Origin: Ignavibacteria bacterium
GTDB taxonomy: Bacteria > Bacteroidota > Ignavibacteria > Tepidaquicellales > OLB5
Reading direction: 5' to 3'
DNA: 35,873 nt
Assembly: GCA_014879675.1 (NCBI GenBank)
Contig: JACSRQ010000080.1
Location: 1-35,873 of the forward strand
Position numbers and translations under genes: made by a program. Of this stretch, positions 1 through 6,292 are shown one piece after another. How positions within the stretch are numbered: the first letter of the stretch is position 1; the number at the start of each line of letters is the position of its first letter. Below the pieces are notes generated by a model. That model ran no database searches. It was not told where the DNA came from and saw only the letters and a program-made list of their open reading frames with translations.

Positions 1-2798
1 AAACTGCCGCTTGTAAGCCTGTAAAAATATACACCGCTGGAAAGCTCAGAAGCGTTGAAATTGATTTCATGATAACCTGCCTCAAGATCTGATTCTACCA
101 TTGAAGCAACTTCCTTACCGGCAATATCATAAACTTTTAAAGTTGTCACTCCGCCTACAGATAATGCGAATTTTATCATTGTCTGCGGATTGAACGGATT
201 CGGATAGTTCTGAGTGAGATTGAATTCCGTTGGCATTTCATTTAAAGTTCTGCCCGAGGTGCCTGTTTGCAGATATTTTATTGCGGCAAAATCATAAGTG
301 TTGGAGCTTGATCCGAAGCTGAGGCCTGCAACATATACTTTGAAAGCAGCATCAACCGCAACGGATACAGCCCCGTCAACACCGCCTGTCCCCGGACCAT
401 CATACCTTGTTGCCCACAATTGTGTACCTGCAGAATTATATTTTATAGTTGCAAAGTCACTGCTTGTGGATGTTCCGTTACTTGAACCTGTTACATATAT
501 ATTCCCGAGTGCGTCAATGGCAAGATCTCTTGCGCCATCGCCGCTGTTTGCGGGACCGTTATATCTTGATGCCCACTGCTGAATTCCGGCAGCATTATAT
601 TTTACTGTAGCGTAATCTGTGCTAGTACCAAGGCCAACGCTGCTTCCGGTTACGTAAACATTTCCTGCTGCGTCTAAAGCAAGGGCCGCTGCCATATCTT
701 CCGCGCCGCCGTTTCCGTTATATTTCCCGGTCCATTGCTGAACACCCGATGTGTTGTATTTTATCGTAACATATTCAATATCCGAAACTGTGCGGGAGCT
801 CCATCCGGTAACGAAAACATTTCCTGCTGCGTCTGTTTTTAATGCTGAAGCTACATCACTCATGTTGCCTGTGCCGTTAAAAATTGCAGCCCACTGGAAA
901 GTGCCTGATGAATTGTATTTTACTGTAGTATAATCTAAGCCTGATGTATTGCCTGTGCAGCTTCCTGTAACATAAACATTCCCCGAGCCATCCAGCGCTA
1001 ATGAGTAAGCGTCATCTGCTGCATTCAGGGGACCATTGTATCTTTGTACCCACTGCTGTGTGCCGTTTAAATTGTATTTAACGGTCGCGTAGTCCATACC
1101 TGCCGTACCCCTGCTGGAACCGGTTACATAAACATTCCCTGAATTATCCACCGCTATAGAACGTGCTTCATCACTGCCGTTGCCCGTTCCGTTATACAGC
1201 GCCACCCACTGCCTTACGCCGGTTGAATTGTATTTGATAGTTGCATAATCCGCGCCCGAAGTTGTGTTAACGGCAACACCGGTTACATATATATTCCCCG
1301 AAGCATCAACTACCGAAGCGTTAACTTTATCATCACCGTTTGCTGTGCCGTTATGGGTTCTCGTCCATTGCACGCCGCTTGGAGTATATCTAACAACGCC
1401 CATATCTTTGCCGGAACTAATACCTGTTACTATCCCGGAAACTACAGTGTATCCTGAGTTATCAACCACCATAGATCTTGCCTCGTCATAGTCACTTCCC
1501 GTACCCTGGTATGTTGTGTTCCACTGAAATAAGCCGGCCGAACTATACTTAACGGTTGTGAAATCCAGTCCGGAACTTGTGGATAAAGTACTGCTGGCAA
1601 CTATAACGTTTCCGGTGTTATCCAGCTTTAATTTAACTTTATCGAGATAAGGTGCCCCGTTATAATTGCGGAACCATTGTTGTACACCTGTTGTGTTATA
1701 TTTTACTATAGCCTGCGTGCCTGCGAAAAAAATTGTGCCTGATGCGTCTACAATCATTGAATAAGCAAATTCCGTTGTTGCTTGCGACCATTGCAGGGTT
1801 CCTGAGCTGTTATATTTTAGTAATACAGACTCTACGTTTCCGTTTGAAAGATTGTCTCTCAAGCCTGCTACGTAAACATTACCTGCTGCATCCGTTTTTA
1901 CCTGGCAATCTGGATAACCGCCCCTATAGATATCAACACCTATTACACTTCTAATCCATGCAACACTTCCGGAAGAAGTATATTTTATCGTTGTAATCGA
2001 ATCTTGTACATTATTTGATAAACCATCTCTGGAAGAATATCCTGTAACATAAACATTCCCTGATCCGTCGAGCGACATTTTACCAGCATGTTTACCTATA
2101 CTGTACGCTTTTAGCCATTGCAGGGTACCTGATGAGTTAATTTTTATGGTAAAAAAATCACCGTTCGTACGTGAATCACCGAAAATATAACCATAACCGC
2201 TTGCATCAATTAACAAGTCGCTAATTCTATCGATATCCACGTTATATGTCTGCATCCAGGTCTGAGTGCCGGATGAACTATATTTTATAGCTACAAAGCG
2301 CCCTGAAGATTCGCCAACAACTAAAACATTGCCTGATTGGTCTATTGATATATTACTAATGGACTTTAAACCGGAAGGATATTTAACCCACTCCTGTAAA
2401 CCTGCCGCATTATATTTTACAACTATACCTTGTCCTGAAAGAACTCCGGATGTTATACCATATCTAAATCCTGCTATGTATACATTTCCCGAAACATCTG
2501 CAGCTATTGTAAGAACATTATAAATACATGTATCGGAAGGTGCAAATCTAGCGACCCATATCCGTGTACCATTTGGGTCATATTTTACAGTAGCAATTGC
2601 CTTTCTGTATGGTGATTCAGAAATTACAATGTCACCAGTAACATATGTATTCCCTGAAGCATCAACAACCATATCTTTTTCTGCATCATTCCCTGTACCG
2701 GCAGGTCCATTATACCTTTTAGCCCACTCCTGCACAACCTGTGAGTTAATAGCATCGTAGCAGCTAAAGAGCATCAGAATTAATATTAGCTTTTTCAT
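1..2798 (-). CDS. T9SS-secreted SBBP-repeat (beta-propeller-like) protein, 3' end cut by window edge
   Basis: Absent from the ORF track because the frame has no stop inside the window. I read it on the minus strand from ATG at 2798 and found no stop at the points checked to base 1 (about 932 codons). It opens with a signal peptide (MKKLILILMLFS...) followed by about 16 repeats of the G-N-V-Y-V-T-G type (SBBP-like). Spacing is about 157-160 bp over the C-terminal half and more irregular in the N-terminal third. The visible end reads NASELSSGVYFYRLTSGS, which is the T9SS type A sorting domain. By comparison with the next gene only about 12 residues are missing. The family is exported across the outer membrane by T9SS and then released or anchored; the role of the propeller is unknown. 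The frame was verified at six separate repeats. Confidence 0.9.
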   Translation of the reverse strand, partial: MKKLILILMLFSCYDAINSQVVQEWAKRYNGPAGTGNDAEKDMVVDASGNTYVTGDIVISESPYRKAIATVKYDPNGTRIWVARFAPSDTCIYNVLTIAADVSGNVYIAGFRYGITSGVLSGQGIVVKYNAAGLQEWVKYPSGLKSISNISIDQSGNVLVVGESSGRFVAIKYSSSGTQTWMQTYNVDIDRISDLLIDASGYGYIFGDSRTNGDFFTIKINSSGTLQWLKAYSIGKHAGKMSLDGSGNVYVTGYSSRDGLSNNVQDSITTIKYTSSGSVAWIRSVIGVDIYRGGYPDCQVKTDAAGNVYVAGLRDNLSNGNVESVLLKYNSSGTLQWSQATTEFAYSMIVDASGTIFFAGTQAIVKYNTTGVQQWFRNYNGAPYLDKVKLKLDNTGNVIVASSTLSTSSGLDFTTVKYSSAGLFQWNTTYQGTGSDYDEARSMVVDNSGYTVVSGIVTGISSGKDMGVVRYTPSGVQWTRTHNGTANGDDKVNASVVDASGNIYVTGVAVNTTSGADYATIKYNSTGVRQWVALYNGTGNGSDEARSIAVDNSGNVYVTGSSRGTAGMDYATVKYNLNGTQQWVQRYNGPLNAADDAYSLALDGSGNVYVTGSCTGNTSGLDYTTVKYNSSGTFQWAAIFNGTGNMSDVASALKTDAAGNVFVTGWSSRTVSDIEYVTIKYNTSGVQQWTGKYNGNGGAEDMAAALALDAAGNVYVTGSSVGLGTSTDYATVKYNAAGIQQWASRYNGPANSGDGARDLAIDALGNIYVTGSSNGTSTSSDFATIKYNSAGTQLWATRYDGPGTGGVDGAVSVAVDAAFKVYVAGLSFGSSSNTYDFAAIKYLQTGTSGRTLNEMPTEFNLTQNYPNPFNPQTMIKFALSVGGVTTLKVYDIAGKEVASMVESDLEAGYHEINFNASELSSGVYFYRLTSGS

Positions 2799-2852
2799 TT
2801 TCTTTATCTTTAGTTGTTTTTATGATTTTATTGAATTTATATTTTATTCAGG

Positions 2853-2869
2853 TGCACTTTGATTGTGCA
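2853..2869. promoter_or_regulatory. TGCAC-N7-GTGCA palindrome just downstream of the -7 box
   Basis: On the plus strand this reads TGCAC, seven bases, GTGCA. It lies exactly 6 nt downstream (in minus-strand sense) of the candidate -7 element of the gene ending at base 1. The gene at 3058-4656 has the same palindrome at the same distance. It could be a repressor operator over the transcription start or a 5' stem-loop in the mRNA. A related TACAC-N7-GTGCA copy lies at 2885-2901, inside the promoter spacer. The function is inferred; the sequence match is direct. Confidence 0.5.
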
Positions 2870-2875
2870 ACGGTA

Positions 2876-2908
2876 CGAAGATAGTACACCGATACCGTGC
2901 ACAGCAAA
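2876..2908 (-). promoter_or_regulatory. Bacteroidota-type promoter of the first T9SS gene
   Basis: Minus-strand reading: TTTG (2908-2905), 21 nt spacer, TATCTTCG (2883-2876). This resembles the known Bacteroidota sigma-ABfr consensus (TTTG about 19-21 nt before TAnnTTTG). An A/T-rich block upstream of the TTTG is shared almost unchanged with the promoter of the second T9SS gene. The leader to the ATG would be about 70 nt. Confidence 0.5.
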
Positions 2909-3020
2909 GAAAGTTTTATTTATATTTAAACAGGGTTTGATGCTGGTTAACAGAAATACCTTTGATTTTGTCCCGGAATCAGCATTTTGTCTCCACTTTT
3001 TTAAACAAGTTTCTTGTAAA

Positions 3021-3043
3021 ACAGGCGGGCTTTACCCGCCTGT
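3021..3043 (-). terminator. Rho-independent-like terminator after the second T9SS gene
   Basis: A perfect 9-bp stem, ACAGGCGGG / CCCGCCTGT, with a 5-nt loop. On the minus strand it is followed by a short T run. It begins 15 nt past the stop codon of the gene at 3058-4656, which is the position expected for its terminator. The T tract is short (TTTTAC), so termination strength is uncertain. Confidence 0.65.
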
Positions 3044-3057
3044 AATTATAAAACCGG

Positions 3058-4656
3058 TTACTTTACCAGCATCATTTTCTTTATATCGGTGAAGCTGCCG
3101 CTTGTAATCCTGTAGAAATATGTGCCGCTCGATAGCTGTGAAGCATTAAAGTTAACTTCGTGATTGCCCGCCTCAAGATCTGCTTCAACCAGTGAGGCAA
3201 CTTCTTTACCCGCGATATCATAAACTTTAAGCGTAGTCATCCCATTTACAGGCAAAGCAAATTTTATGGTGGTAGCAGGGTTGAACGGGTTTGGATAGTT
3301 TTGGGTAAGAGAAAATTCAGCAGGAGCTTCAACCGGTTCTATAACAGGTTTAGATAAACTGCCAGCTATGCTGTATTTAGCAAGGATCATGTTAAGGTTA
3401 ACACCGGAATTGAAGTTTGAACCGCATATTACAAGATGGCCGGAATTTAAATACTTAATTCTATATCCGTGTTTGTCCCAATCCCATGCGCCATACCAGC
3501 TAACAACGCCCGAAGATGTAAGTTTTGCAAAGTACTTGCCGTAAGCACTCTTTCCGCTCACATATATATTATTAGAAGCGTCAGAAGTCATACTGTGTAC
3601 ATGGCTGAGACCCTCAGGCTCTTTTGTCCACTGTAATACCCCAGAGCTGTTATACTTAATAACAATACTTTTCACTCCCGGAGCAGTTGAAGTTCCGTGA
3701 AAACCACCACATATCAGATTTCCGGAATTATCCGTAATAGCTTTTGTTTCAATACCTCGTGCTCCTGTAACGTCTAACCTGCGGTACCAGTTAAGACTGC
3801 CATCTGAAGTATTTAACTGCATTGCAACAAATCTACAGTTTGCAAAAGTTCCACTCCATGCCTGTCCGGTTATGTATAACTTGTTACCGCTTATCACATT
3901 TCCATCATAGGTATAGAGTTGACTTCTCGTTGTATCAGAAAATGTTTTAGCCCAAACCGTACTAAGCGCAATAGTGAATTTAACGGCCAGAGCATTTAAA
4001 CCGGATCTACCCGTAACATAAACGGAATTAGCGGCATCAATTGTAATTGCTGTAGTCCCTTCAATAACACCAATGGACCCATACCATCCCGATATATAAG
4101 AGCCAGTTGGTGTCAATCTGAAAACTACAACCTGAGAACCTGTACCACCAGGTTCTGTCATATCACCGGCAACAAACAGGTAATTACTCTTGAAGATTGG
4201 TTTATCACCAATAATAGTTGAATACGGTGTAACGCCTGAAAAAAGAAGCCTTCGTGCCCAATAAAAAGTACCGTCAACTCCATACTTTAGCACCCAAACA
4301 CTTTTTATCCCCCCGGGAGTATCCTGGCTTCTGCAAGTTACGTAGACATACCCTTTTATATCATAATTAATATAAAGTCCATTACCGCCAATACCAGACC
4401 AGTCATAAGTTCTTGTCCATAGTCTTGTTCCATCCGGTGCATATTTTACGATTATAGCGTATCCGGTAGCGGAAGAATTTGAATCAGACGTGCCGGTACA
4501 ATATATATTACCTGAACCGTCGGTTTCAAAATCATTAAAACCTTCATAATAGCCTGTTCCCCTTGAATATTCCCTGGTCCACTCTGTAACAGGCTGCGAG
4601 TTTACAAACATTGTTAAAGCGATTGAAAAAAACATACAGATAATTATTTTTTTCAT
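3058..4656 (-). CDS. T9SS-secreted SBBP/beta-propeller-like protein
   Basis: A 532-residue secreted protein. The ORF track starts it at a TTG (4671), but that codon precedes the Shine-Dalgarno GGAG. The ATG at 4656 sits 7 nt after that SD and opens a good signal peptide (MKKIIICMFFSIALTMF), so I take 4656. The body has about eight degenerate repeats of the type NSVYVTGRS / NNIYVSGKS, as in beta-propeller SBBP proteins. The last 80 or so residues are a T9SS type A sorting domain: QNYPNPFNPATTIKFALP, then KVYDIAGKEVASLVE, then SSGTYFYRITSGSFTDIKKMMLVK. The C-terminal domain is clearly homologous, also at DNA level, to that of the neighbouring gene. They share a promoter type, so both are probably co-regulated extracellular proteins. 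Ligand or enzymatic role unknown. Confidence 0.9.
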   Translation of the reverse strand: MKKIIICMFFSIALTMFVNSQPVTEWTREYSRGTGYYEGFNDFETDGSGNIYCTGTSDSNSSATGYAIIVKYAPDGTRLWTRTYDWSGIGGNGLYINYDIKGYVYVTCRSQDTPGGIKSVWVLKYGVDGTFYWARRLLFSGVTPYSTIIGDKPIFKSNYLFVAGDMTEPGGTGSQVVVFRLTPTGSYISGWYGSIGVIEGTTAITIDAANSVYVTGRSGLNALAVKFTIALSTVWAKTFSDTTRSQLYTYDGNVISGNKLYITGQAWSGTFANCRFVAMQLNTSDGSLNWYRRLDVTGARGIETKAITDNSGNLICGGFHGTSTAPGVKSIVIKYNSSGVLQWTKEPEGLSHVHSMTSDASNNIYVSGKSAYGKYFAKLTSSGVVSWYGAWDWDKHGYRIKYLNSGHLVICGSNFNSGVNLNMILAKYSIAGSLSKPVIEPVEAPAEFSLTQNYPNPFNPATTIKFALPVNGMTTLKVYDIAGKEVASLVEADLEAGNHEVNFNASQLSSGTYFYRITSGSFTDIKKMMLVK

Positions 4657-4704
4657 TTTTTTCTCCTTCAATTTATATTTTTGTATTTTTACTTACTTTT
4701 TTAA

Positions 4705-4721
4705 TGCACCGTATCTGTGCA
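4705..4721. promoter_or_regulatory. Second copy of the TGCAC-N7-GTGCA palindrome
   Basis: TGCAC, seven bases (cgtatct), GTGCA, placed 6 nt downstream of the -7 box of the 3058-4656 gene in minus-strand sense. Spacing and arm sequence match the copy at 2853-2869. Conservation against a diverged background suggests an operator or a functional 5' hairpin. Confidence 0.5.
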
Positions 4722-4727
4722 ACACTG

Positions 4728-4760
4728 CGAAATTACTACATTAGGTATGTACACTTCAAA
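4728..4760 (-). promoter_or_regulatory. Bacteroidota-type promoter of the second T9SS gene
   Basis: Minus-strand reading: TTTG (4760-4757), 21 nt spacer, TAATTTCG (4735-4728). It is preceded by an A/T-rich block (aaagttttattta on the plus strand) that is nearly identical to the one at the first T9SS gene. The leader to the ATG at 4656 is about 65 nt. The spacer length is the same as in the paralogue. Confidence 0.5.
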
Positions 4761-4811
4761 GAAAGTTTTATTTAGTTTTAAACAGGTTTCTGTGTGTCAT
4801 TGTGAAATAAA

Positions 4812-4867: not shown

Positions 4868-6292
4868 ATGAAAGATAACAAGCTTTACCGCCTGCTCAAA
4901 TCGCTTTCTGATGAAGAATGGAAGGCTTTCGAAAAATTCACCGCATCACCCTATTTCAACATGGGCAGAAACTACCTGCCGCTGTTCAGGCTGTTGAAAG
5001 CATTCGTATTAAAAGATAGCCCCGTTTGGCCGGATGATGAAAAGATATACTCAAAGCTCTTTCCCGGAAAACTATTCAACAAAAGTGTAGTGGCAACAAT
5101 GCTCAGCGGCTTCGCCAGGCTGACCGAAAAATTCCTCTTACAGATTGATTACGATACTTCGGCGGAAGGGAAGGAAGTATCACTTTTAAGGCAGCTTGAA
5201 AAAAGAAATTGTGATGACCTGCTGCTAAAAGAAGTTGCCCTGTGTGTTAAAACCAACGAGACCAGGCCATTTGATATGTATAAGCTTGAATTCTCGAAAT
5301 CGATCCAGGATTACATAGTCAGGTCGGCATATAAATCCATTTACGATAAAAAGATCGAAAGCCCTGTTATCAGGCGGGCCGATTATTCTTTTTTTATTTT
5401 TTATCTCAACATGCTGAATGAAGAGCGTGACCTCAGGGTTATGAAGAACATGCTTAACAAGAGTAACCCGGGGAGGCTCTCAGCGCTTACCGTAGAAAAG
5501 ATCGACAGCAATTACGTGCTTTCATATATTGAGGAGAACTATCCTTCGCTTTCGGGCACCCTTGGCCTGCTTATCCGATGTTATGTAAGCCGTGACTACT
5601 ACCTGCTCAGGAAACTGTTTTCGGATAACTATCACAAATTTGATCCGGCAATGGCAAGAAATATCTCTTATGTAATTGAGGGATTGCTTTTTGATCTGCT
5701 GGCCGAGGGGAAACGGGAATACCTGCGGGAGAGATATTTATTCATAAGGTTTTGCATCGAAAACGATCTGCTTATAGATAAACGAAGCGGTACCATTCCC
5801 GCCCAGCCGGTTGATAATGCAGTTTATTACGCACTGTGGAATAAAGACTTCGACTGGATAAACTTTTTCAGTGATAGATACATGAGTTCATTTCCGCGCG
5901 AGCTTGCCGGCGACCTTTCGCGTTATGCAAATGCCTGCGTTCTTTATGGCAGAAAAAAATACGCTGAGGCGCTTAAAGAGATCAAGATGATAGGTAATGT
6001 GCCATTTATGATAAAATGGAAATTAAGAAGCATCGAGCTGCAGATACTATTTGAAATGAAAGACTATGATTCTGTTTATTTTGCGATCGATAACTTTCAA
6101 AAATTCATGAATAACGAAATAATATCCGTCTACTTCGATAAAATGCTCCGGGCAAACATCAGCGCATACAAGGCCTTTGTTAAAGCATTCCCTGAAAATA
6201 ACAGAGTTGAATACAATTCAATCAGGAAAAAACTTGAGAGGGAAACTCCATCGCAATTTGGAGACTGGATGCTTGAAAAAATGGCAGAATAA
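4868..6292 (+). CDS. Uncharacterised 474-residue helical protein
   Basis: I do not recognise a named family with confidence. The protein is soluble, rich in charged and aromatic residues, and looks mostly alpha-helical, possibly a TPR-like solenoid in its C-terminal half (for example YGRKKYAEALKEIKMIG). The opening KLYRLLKSLSDEEWKAFEKF followed by SPYFNMGRNYLPLF resembles conserved hypothetical proteins of Bacteroidota-like genomes, recalled rather than searched. There is no signal peptide or membrane segment. It is transcribed divergently from the T9SS gene, and the noncoding stretch after it suggests a single-gene unit. The ATG at 4868 is the natural start; upstream is A/T-rich with no strong Shine-Dalgarno. 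Confidence 0.85.
   Translation: MKDNKLYRLLKSLSDEEWKAFEKFTASPYFNMGRNYLPLFRLLKAFVLKDSPVWPDDEKIYSKLFPGKLFNKSVVATMLSGFARLTEKFLLQIDYDTSAEGKEVSLLRQLEKRNCDDLLLKEVALCVKTNETRPFDMYKLEFSKSIQDYIVRSAYKSIYDKKIESPVIRRADYSFFIFYLNMLNEERDLRVMKNMLNKSNPGRLSALTVEKIDSNYVLSYIEENYPSLSGTLGLLIRCYVSRDYYLLRKLFSDNYHKFDPAMARNISYVIEGLLFDLLAEGKREYLRERYLFIRFCIENDLLIDKRSGTIPAQPVDNAVYYALWNKDFDWINFFSDRYMSSFPRELAGDLSRYANACVLYGRKKYAEALKEIKMIGNVPFMIKWKLRSIELQILFEMKDYDSVYFAIDNFQKFMNNEIISVYFDKMLRANISAYKAFVKAFPENNRVEYNSIRKKLERETPSQFGDWMLEKMAE

Follow-up and report, generated by a model that had tools for sequence, protein, structure and literature searches.

GTGCAC boxes at the promoters of two T9SS cargo genes in an Ignavibacteria bacterium: probable operators of a small RHH-like repressor

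Two paralogous T9SS cargo genes of an Ignavibacteria bacterium are preceded by a housekeeping-type promoter that is overlaid by copies of the self-palindromic hexamer GTGCAC. We consider it likely that these boxes are the operators of an autoregulated small RHH-like repressor, with the two cargo genes probably being targets in trans. The stretch of DNA analysed, referred to here as the window, comprises 35 873 nucleotides of contig JACSRQ010000080.1 (C1). The likely regulator is a small protein that is encoded directly behind the element in relatives and at other loci of the same genome. Little is known about the regulation of individual T9SS cargo genes, and the literature searched contained no comparable regulator for Ignavibacteria. 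The small-protein family and its GTGCAC boxes appear to be undescribed, and they look like a lineage-specific repressor family with surface-protein genes as targets. The candidate consists of an unannotated protein family and a defined DNA box, operon-linked to exported cargo; the presence of one shared box in a multi-copy family raises the question of coordinated or exclusive surface-protein display.

Promoters and cargo genes of the window

The full arrangement TTTG-N21-TAnnTTCG-N6-TGCAC-N7-GTGCA is found upstream of both cargo genes on the minus strand (Table 1), in the fixed register described in the initial annotation. TTTG-N21-TAnnTTCG at both genes corresponds to a promoter of the Bacteroidetes type (TTTG at -33 and TAnnTTTG at -7), and a -33/-7 promoter was recognisable at 60 of the 80 sites examined. 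The window proteins are 30–33% identical, yet the AAATAAAACTTTCTTTG block is identical between their promoters; its conservation thus exceeds that of the downstream genes. The palindrome TGCAC-N7-GTGCA, which is present at both genes as first reported, consists of two hexamer boxes (TTGCAC and GTGCAC/T), and the downstream pair of gene 1 is expected to lie over or just past the start site. The additional TACAC-N7-GTGCA that had been noticed in the gene 1 spacer is confirmed at 2885–2901 and again represents two boxes, GTGCAC and GTGTAC, the exact one starting at -19 from the -7 box, a position shared by 12 other promoters. All box copies of gene 2 are degenerate (GTGTAC, ATGTAG, TTGCAC and GTGCAT), and the two in its spacer align in register with GTGCAC of the other copies. 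The window leaders are about 50 nt long, and a search of them for a vestige of the small gene found none. Taken as stand-alone evidence, the palindrome was rejected: the window contains three one-mismatch matches versus 0.93 expected (four of 100 shuffles reach three), and the 17 TGCAC-N5–9-GTGCA sites genome-wide are mostly intragenic.

Table 1. Features of the promoter regions and adjoining genes (window coordinates)
Feature	Position	Strand	Remarks
Gene 1	1–2798	-	Signal peptide, beta-propeller-repeat-like cargo; 932 aa open to window end
Gene 1 downstream box pair	2852–2870	-	TTGCAC (2865–2870), 7 nt, GTGCAC (2852–2857)
Gene 1 palindrome TGCACAATCAAAGTGCA	2853–2869	-	6 nt after -7 element
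Gene 1 -7 element TATCTTCG	2876–2883	-	TAnnTTTG variant
Gene 1 spacer box pair	2884–2902	-	GTGCAC (2897–2902), 7 nt, GTGTAC (2884–2889); within 21-nt spacer
Gene 1 -33 element TTTG	2905–2908	-	Fits Bacteroidetes -33 TTTG consensus (PMC7366714)
Gene 1 A/T block (TTTAAATATAAATAAAACTTTC)	2909–2930	-	17-nt AAATAAAACTTTCTTTG identical in both window copies and C173
Gene 2	3058–4656	-	532 aa T9SS cargo; SBBP repeats, Por_Secre_tail
Gene 2 downstream box pair	4704–4722	-	TTGCAC (4717–4722), 7 nt, GTGCAT (4704–4709)
Gene 2 palindrome TGCACAGATACGGTGCA	4705–4721	-	6 nt after -7 element
Gene 2 -7 element TAATTTCG	4728–4735	-	
Gene 2 degenerate spacer boxes	4736–4754	-	GTGTAC (4749–4754), 7 nt, ATGTAG (4736–4741)
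Gene 2 -33 element TTTG	4757–4760	-	21-nt spacer follows
Gene 2 A/T block	4761–4782	-	
Divergent partner ORF	4868–6292	+	474 aa; shares intergenic region with gene 2

In the whole genome, the promoter-plus-palindrome pattern occurs twice on C1, at C173:184 and, with a 6-nt loop, at C81:2379. A sequence-only motif model built from these four copies gives five strong matches across the 3.8-Mb genome (E between 1e-22 and 2e-13, with the next match at 0.025), the fifth being C173:1989. The copies outside the window precede T9SS or exported cargo, directly or via a small gene, which agrees with the suggestion that a genome scan might lead to other T9SS cargo genes. Nor is the motif confined to two recent duplicates, since the same model finds further copies in most genus-mates, the hosts of which are named in a public collection as Ignavibacteria/Chlorobi MAGs (e.g. 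OLB5 and UBA2360). Most of the copies in relatives lie 9–30 nt ahead of a gene for a small protein of 55–75 aa, which is followed by exported, often T9SS, cargo. Two weak model matches (L084 and L085) without the box pair and without a small gene behind them were taken as chance. The motif is restricted to the genus or family and is therefore no general T9SS signal.

The gene 2 product has the C-terminal sorting domain of T9SS cargo (PF18962, E 1.5e-12; PF06739, E 2e-5). The end of gene 1 at the window edge is tail-like (YRLTSGS, ...RLTSGSF, window 1–20) and appears to be a C-terminal sorting tail cut by the window end, which probably continues as TDVKKMMLVK* at position 1 of C173 (L067:1–33). 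As C173 starts with this peptide and an intergenic region very similar to that preceding gene 1, it is probably the continuation of C1 (minus strand), with no overlap between the two contigs. Gene 1 and the C173 cargo gene are preceded by intergenic DNA that is largely shared in sequence, and the shared part includes a terminator-like hairpin; the hairpin ACAGGCGGG..CCCGCCTGT is located at window 3021–3043, after gene 2, and recurs at the start of C173. Joined in this way, the contigs would hold a tandem array in which gene 2 and gene 1 are followed by a third cargo gene and, behind it, by a small gene with cargo. C173 also contains a natural copy without operator (L067:6523–6650) at a close gene 1 paralogue with nearly the same signal peptide; its promoter has a comparable A/T block, TTTG and -7 region and lacks GTGCAC boxes altogether.

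The GTGCAC box and the small-protein family

What is conserved is the hexamer GTGCAC, present in one to three copies per promoter, which describes the sites better than TGCAC-N7-GTGCA. The boxes, their enrichment and phasing, their co-occurrence with the small family and the operon order can be read directly from the genome sequences. GTGCAC is found upstream of 70 of the 74 small-protein genes, compared with 2.2 expected (maximum of eight in 200 dinucleotide shuffles), and at least two boxes are present in 53 of these 74 regions versus 0.03 expected, so that the regulator candidate's own promoter bears the repeated palindromic sites typical of an autoregulatory operator. It is also the top palindromic hexamer in the 74 regions, followed by AAATTT with 34. 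Centre-to-centre spacings of adjacent exact boxes cluster at 11–12 bp (28 cases), 20–25 bp (12), 32–34 bp (7) and 44–45 bp (5), approximately multiples of 11 bp, or roughly a helical turn; the pattern derives partly from inherited promoter architecture and is thus supportive rather than independent. The spacing is not rigid (0–9 nt between boxes), and GTGCAC occupies at least six different placements relative to the -7 element: it lies between -33 and -7 in 28 of the 60 recognisable promoters and also occurs at +7 to +44, counted from the -7 box's first base.

As a control, 40 loci with the divergent partner (see below) and without the small gene contain a single GTGCAC in total across their facing 600-nt regions (70/74 versus 1/40, Fisher p ~1e-24, which is only indicative because the loci are related). 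Order-wide, GTGCAC-N4–6-GTGCAC is present in 13 of the 21 genomes with the small-protein family and in none of the 23 without it (p 4e-6). Directly ahead of a gene of this family lie 29 of the 31 paired-box sites in the order, and the remaining two (L246 and L247) directly precede exported-protein genes, as in the window.

The small protein (55–75 aa) carries the signature SKGYRLKxSTHxxIxxLQ, also read as SKGYRLKxSTHxxIKxLQ. Two to nine copies were found in every genus-mate and a few in the rest of the order, and among 396 genomes sampled across the phylum the family is confined to this genus; the genome of the window has five such genes (on C81, C173 and C207, and two on C141). Searches of Pfam, NCBIfam and PDB sequences gave no significant match, RHH families included; PHROG 3887 ('transcriptional regulator') weakly matches seven of 27 members, with a best E of 3e-5. 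RHH proteins comprise one beta strand and then two helices within ~45 residues, and they pair as intertwined dimers that place the beta ribbon in the major groove. The AlphaFold2 model, with a core pLDDT above 90, consists of an extended GYRLK/KGYRLK segment and two helices (residues 23–36 and 40–68); no strand is assigned to the extended segment of the monomer, where none would be expected without a dimer partner. The matches of this model to PDB entries in Foldseek are mostly RHH or RHH-like (ParD, PutA, NikA, MatP, CopG, AtaR, VapB and RHH-like TCP domains) with E-values of ~1–10, which are not significant; the fold assignment is therefore based on the kinds of protein that turn up repeatedly. 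The BFVD matches include phage proteins annotated as RHH, CopG or Arc (E above 0.1). Approximate sequences of CopG, Arc and omega matched the small protein no better than did their own shuffles. We therefore term the protein RHH-like rather than a member of the RHH family, as it has no sequence match to an RHH family profile. It is probably a DNA-binding protein, and a dimeric RHH fold is proposed for it. A mobile or phage origin was considered and rejected: plasmid sequences gave no match, and the phage matches were limited to two (E 0.008 and 0.05), both annotated as terminase.

In the operons of relatives, the exported protein is encoded second, often with a 4-nt overlap with the small ORF. 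These second genes mostly encode signal-peptide proteins of 150–900 aa, many of them T9SS-tailed. A type II toxin–antitoxin module was rejected on this basis, as the second gene product is exported and is not a small cytoplasmic toxin. At four loci (L134, L144, L158 and L165) the small RHH-like ORF and the downstream exported protein share one frame with no stop between them (open frames of 570–758 aa), which would reflect either a fusion or a translational restart at an internal Met.

The ORF divergent from gene 2 encodes an all-helical protein (AlphaFold2 pLDDT 89.7) with TPR-type Foldseek neighbours; its family is large and unannotated, with nothing more than weak TPR matches in Pfam/NCBIfam. 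Within 800 nt, 68 of the 76 small-gene operons are faced by a homologue of this partner. The partner family extends beyond the small family: many genomes of the order have at least 13 copies each, and it occurs with or without the small gene, often facing exported-protein genes that have other kinds of small ORF or none. At loci where the partner faces exported genes that have no GTGCAC boxes, unrelated ORFs of 65–80 aa, of a basic Lys-rich and a coiled type, often fill the place of the RHH-like gene (L287, L288, L291, L293, L295, L298 and L301, and also L270, L271 and L297). We can only guess at the role of the partner, perhaps that of a sensor or regulator acting on these operons.

Proposed regulation and alternatives

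In the proposed mechanism, a housekeeping-type Bacteroidota/Ignavibacteria promoter (-33 TTTG, -7 TAnnTTCG) is overlaid by operator boxes, each of which would accept one dimer of the small protein, with dimers on boxes one helical turn (11–12 bp) apart probably binding cooperatively. Protein bound over the -33/-7 spacer and the first transcribed bases would block RNA polymerase. Repression is expected because the boxes lie in these positions; activation is less likely for the same reason, and AmrZ, a regulator discussed below, does both. A small gene directly behind such a promoter, the position of most family members, would repress itself and the exported cargo that follows. The small gene is missing at the window genes, which are therefore most likely trans-repressed, probably by the paralogues at C173:2081, C81:2451 and C207 and the two on C141. 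DNA binding, repression, cross-regulation, the dimeric RHH fold and the action in trans on the window genes are what we infer for this system. A wider scheme is put forward only tentatively, and we are inclined to doubt it: the 2–9 RHH-like repressor paralogues per genome, sharing the recognition segment GYRLKxxTH and the GTGCAC box and each accompanied by an exported surface protein and a TPR-like partner, would form a genus network of modules that silence one another, as the box is common to all, giving switch-like or exclusive T9SS display with the partner as sensor or anti-repressor.

The initial annotation offered either an operator or a 5' mRNA hairpin, and of these the operator is favoured by the boxes in the spacer (28/60 promoters), by three-box arrays and by spacings near multiples of 11 bp. 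As a hairpin, TGCAC-N7-GTGCA would be the first transcribed stretch, with a 5-bp stem controlling mRNA stability or translation. The predicted leaders do fold into that stem (-6.4 and -5.3 kcal/mol; z -2.6 and -2.3), the expected start site falls between the two arms or ahead of them, the variation in loop length among loci would be tolerable and the stems at L156 and L079 are extended or compensated. However, since GTGCAC is self-palindromic, any pair of boxes folds as a stem automatically, and just one of the 19 box pairs that deviate from GTGCAC is compensated, although many of the deviations are at the stem ends. Furthermore, a spacer box is upstream of any transcript from this promoter, and three-box arrays and spacings of zero or one nt do not produce the same hairpin. 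We regard a functional hairpin as unlikely, and it is not needed.

An operator would equally be expected if it belonged to an unrelated regulator encoded elsewhere and the small protein travelled with the cargo as a co-regulated passenger. Such an arrangement would suit the lack of any significant match between the small family and known DNA-binding families, as well as the cargo genes that have boxes without a small gene. It is nevertheless improbable given that the boxes track the small gene both among genomes (13/21 versus 0/23) and among loci that share the partner (70/74 versus 1/40), and that the predicted topology of the small protein is RHH-like (AlphaFold2, Foldseek). That the shared block is merely a functionless leftover of recent tandem duplication, as the similarity of the upstream regions of gene 1 and the C173 cargo gene and the lineage restriction of the motif might suggest, is very improbable and already contradicted by the conservation pattern: the DNA upstream of gene 2 has diverged outside the promoter and boxes, the proteins are 30–33% identical, and other genomes have boxes at different positions in otherwise unrelated upstream DNA. 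Operators of an autoregulated RHH-like repressor remain our preferred reading.

Comparison with known systems

The Bacteroidetes housekeeping promoter has TTTG at -33 and TAnnTTTG at -7 (PMC7366714). The promoters described here resemble it in having TTTG, ~20–21 nt and TAnnTT(C/T)G, and differ from the consensus in the TAnnTTCG of the window copies and in the operator boxes that lie across the spacer and start region. Arc, CopG and MetJ combine a strand-helix-helix fold with palindromic sub-sites about one helical turn apart and autoregulation. CopG is among the fold neighbours of the small protein, although there is no match at the sequence level. A small, putatively autoregulating gene in first position of a two-gene operon is also reminiscent of RHH antitoxins (ParD, RelB and VapB types), and ParD and AtaR are fold neighbours as well; unlike in those systems, the second gene encodes an exported, often T9SS-tailed protein, mostly of 150–900 aa, rather than a small cytoplasmic toxin.

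Omega of pSM19035 is an RHH protein of the MetJ/Arc type that binds short repeats with one dimer per repeat, acts cooperatively on arrays and controls several operons (PMC4803016). The present system similarly combines a small RHH-like candidate regulator, for which binding is likewise proposed, with arrays of short boxes. The heptads of omega are contiguous, whereas the GTGCAC boxes are usually 11–12 bp apart, and the small family differs further in being chromosomal, multi-copy and linked to exported cargo, without detectable sequence similarity to omega. AmrZ of Pseudomonas aeruginosa is an RHH protein that occupies two half-sites as a dimer of dimers; it is autorepressed through two sites, and its control extends to unlinked virulence genes (PMC3325190), much as is proposed here for the small protein and the window genes. 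AmrZ recognises GGC half-sites separated by a 5-bp A/T-rich linker rather than GTGCAC, and AmrZ does not belong to a paralogous family coupled to secreted proteins, as the small protein does.
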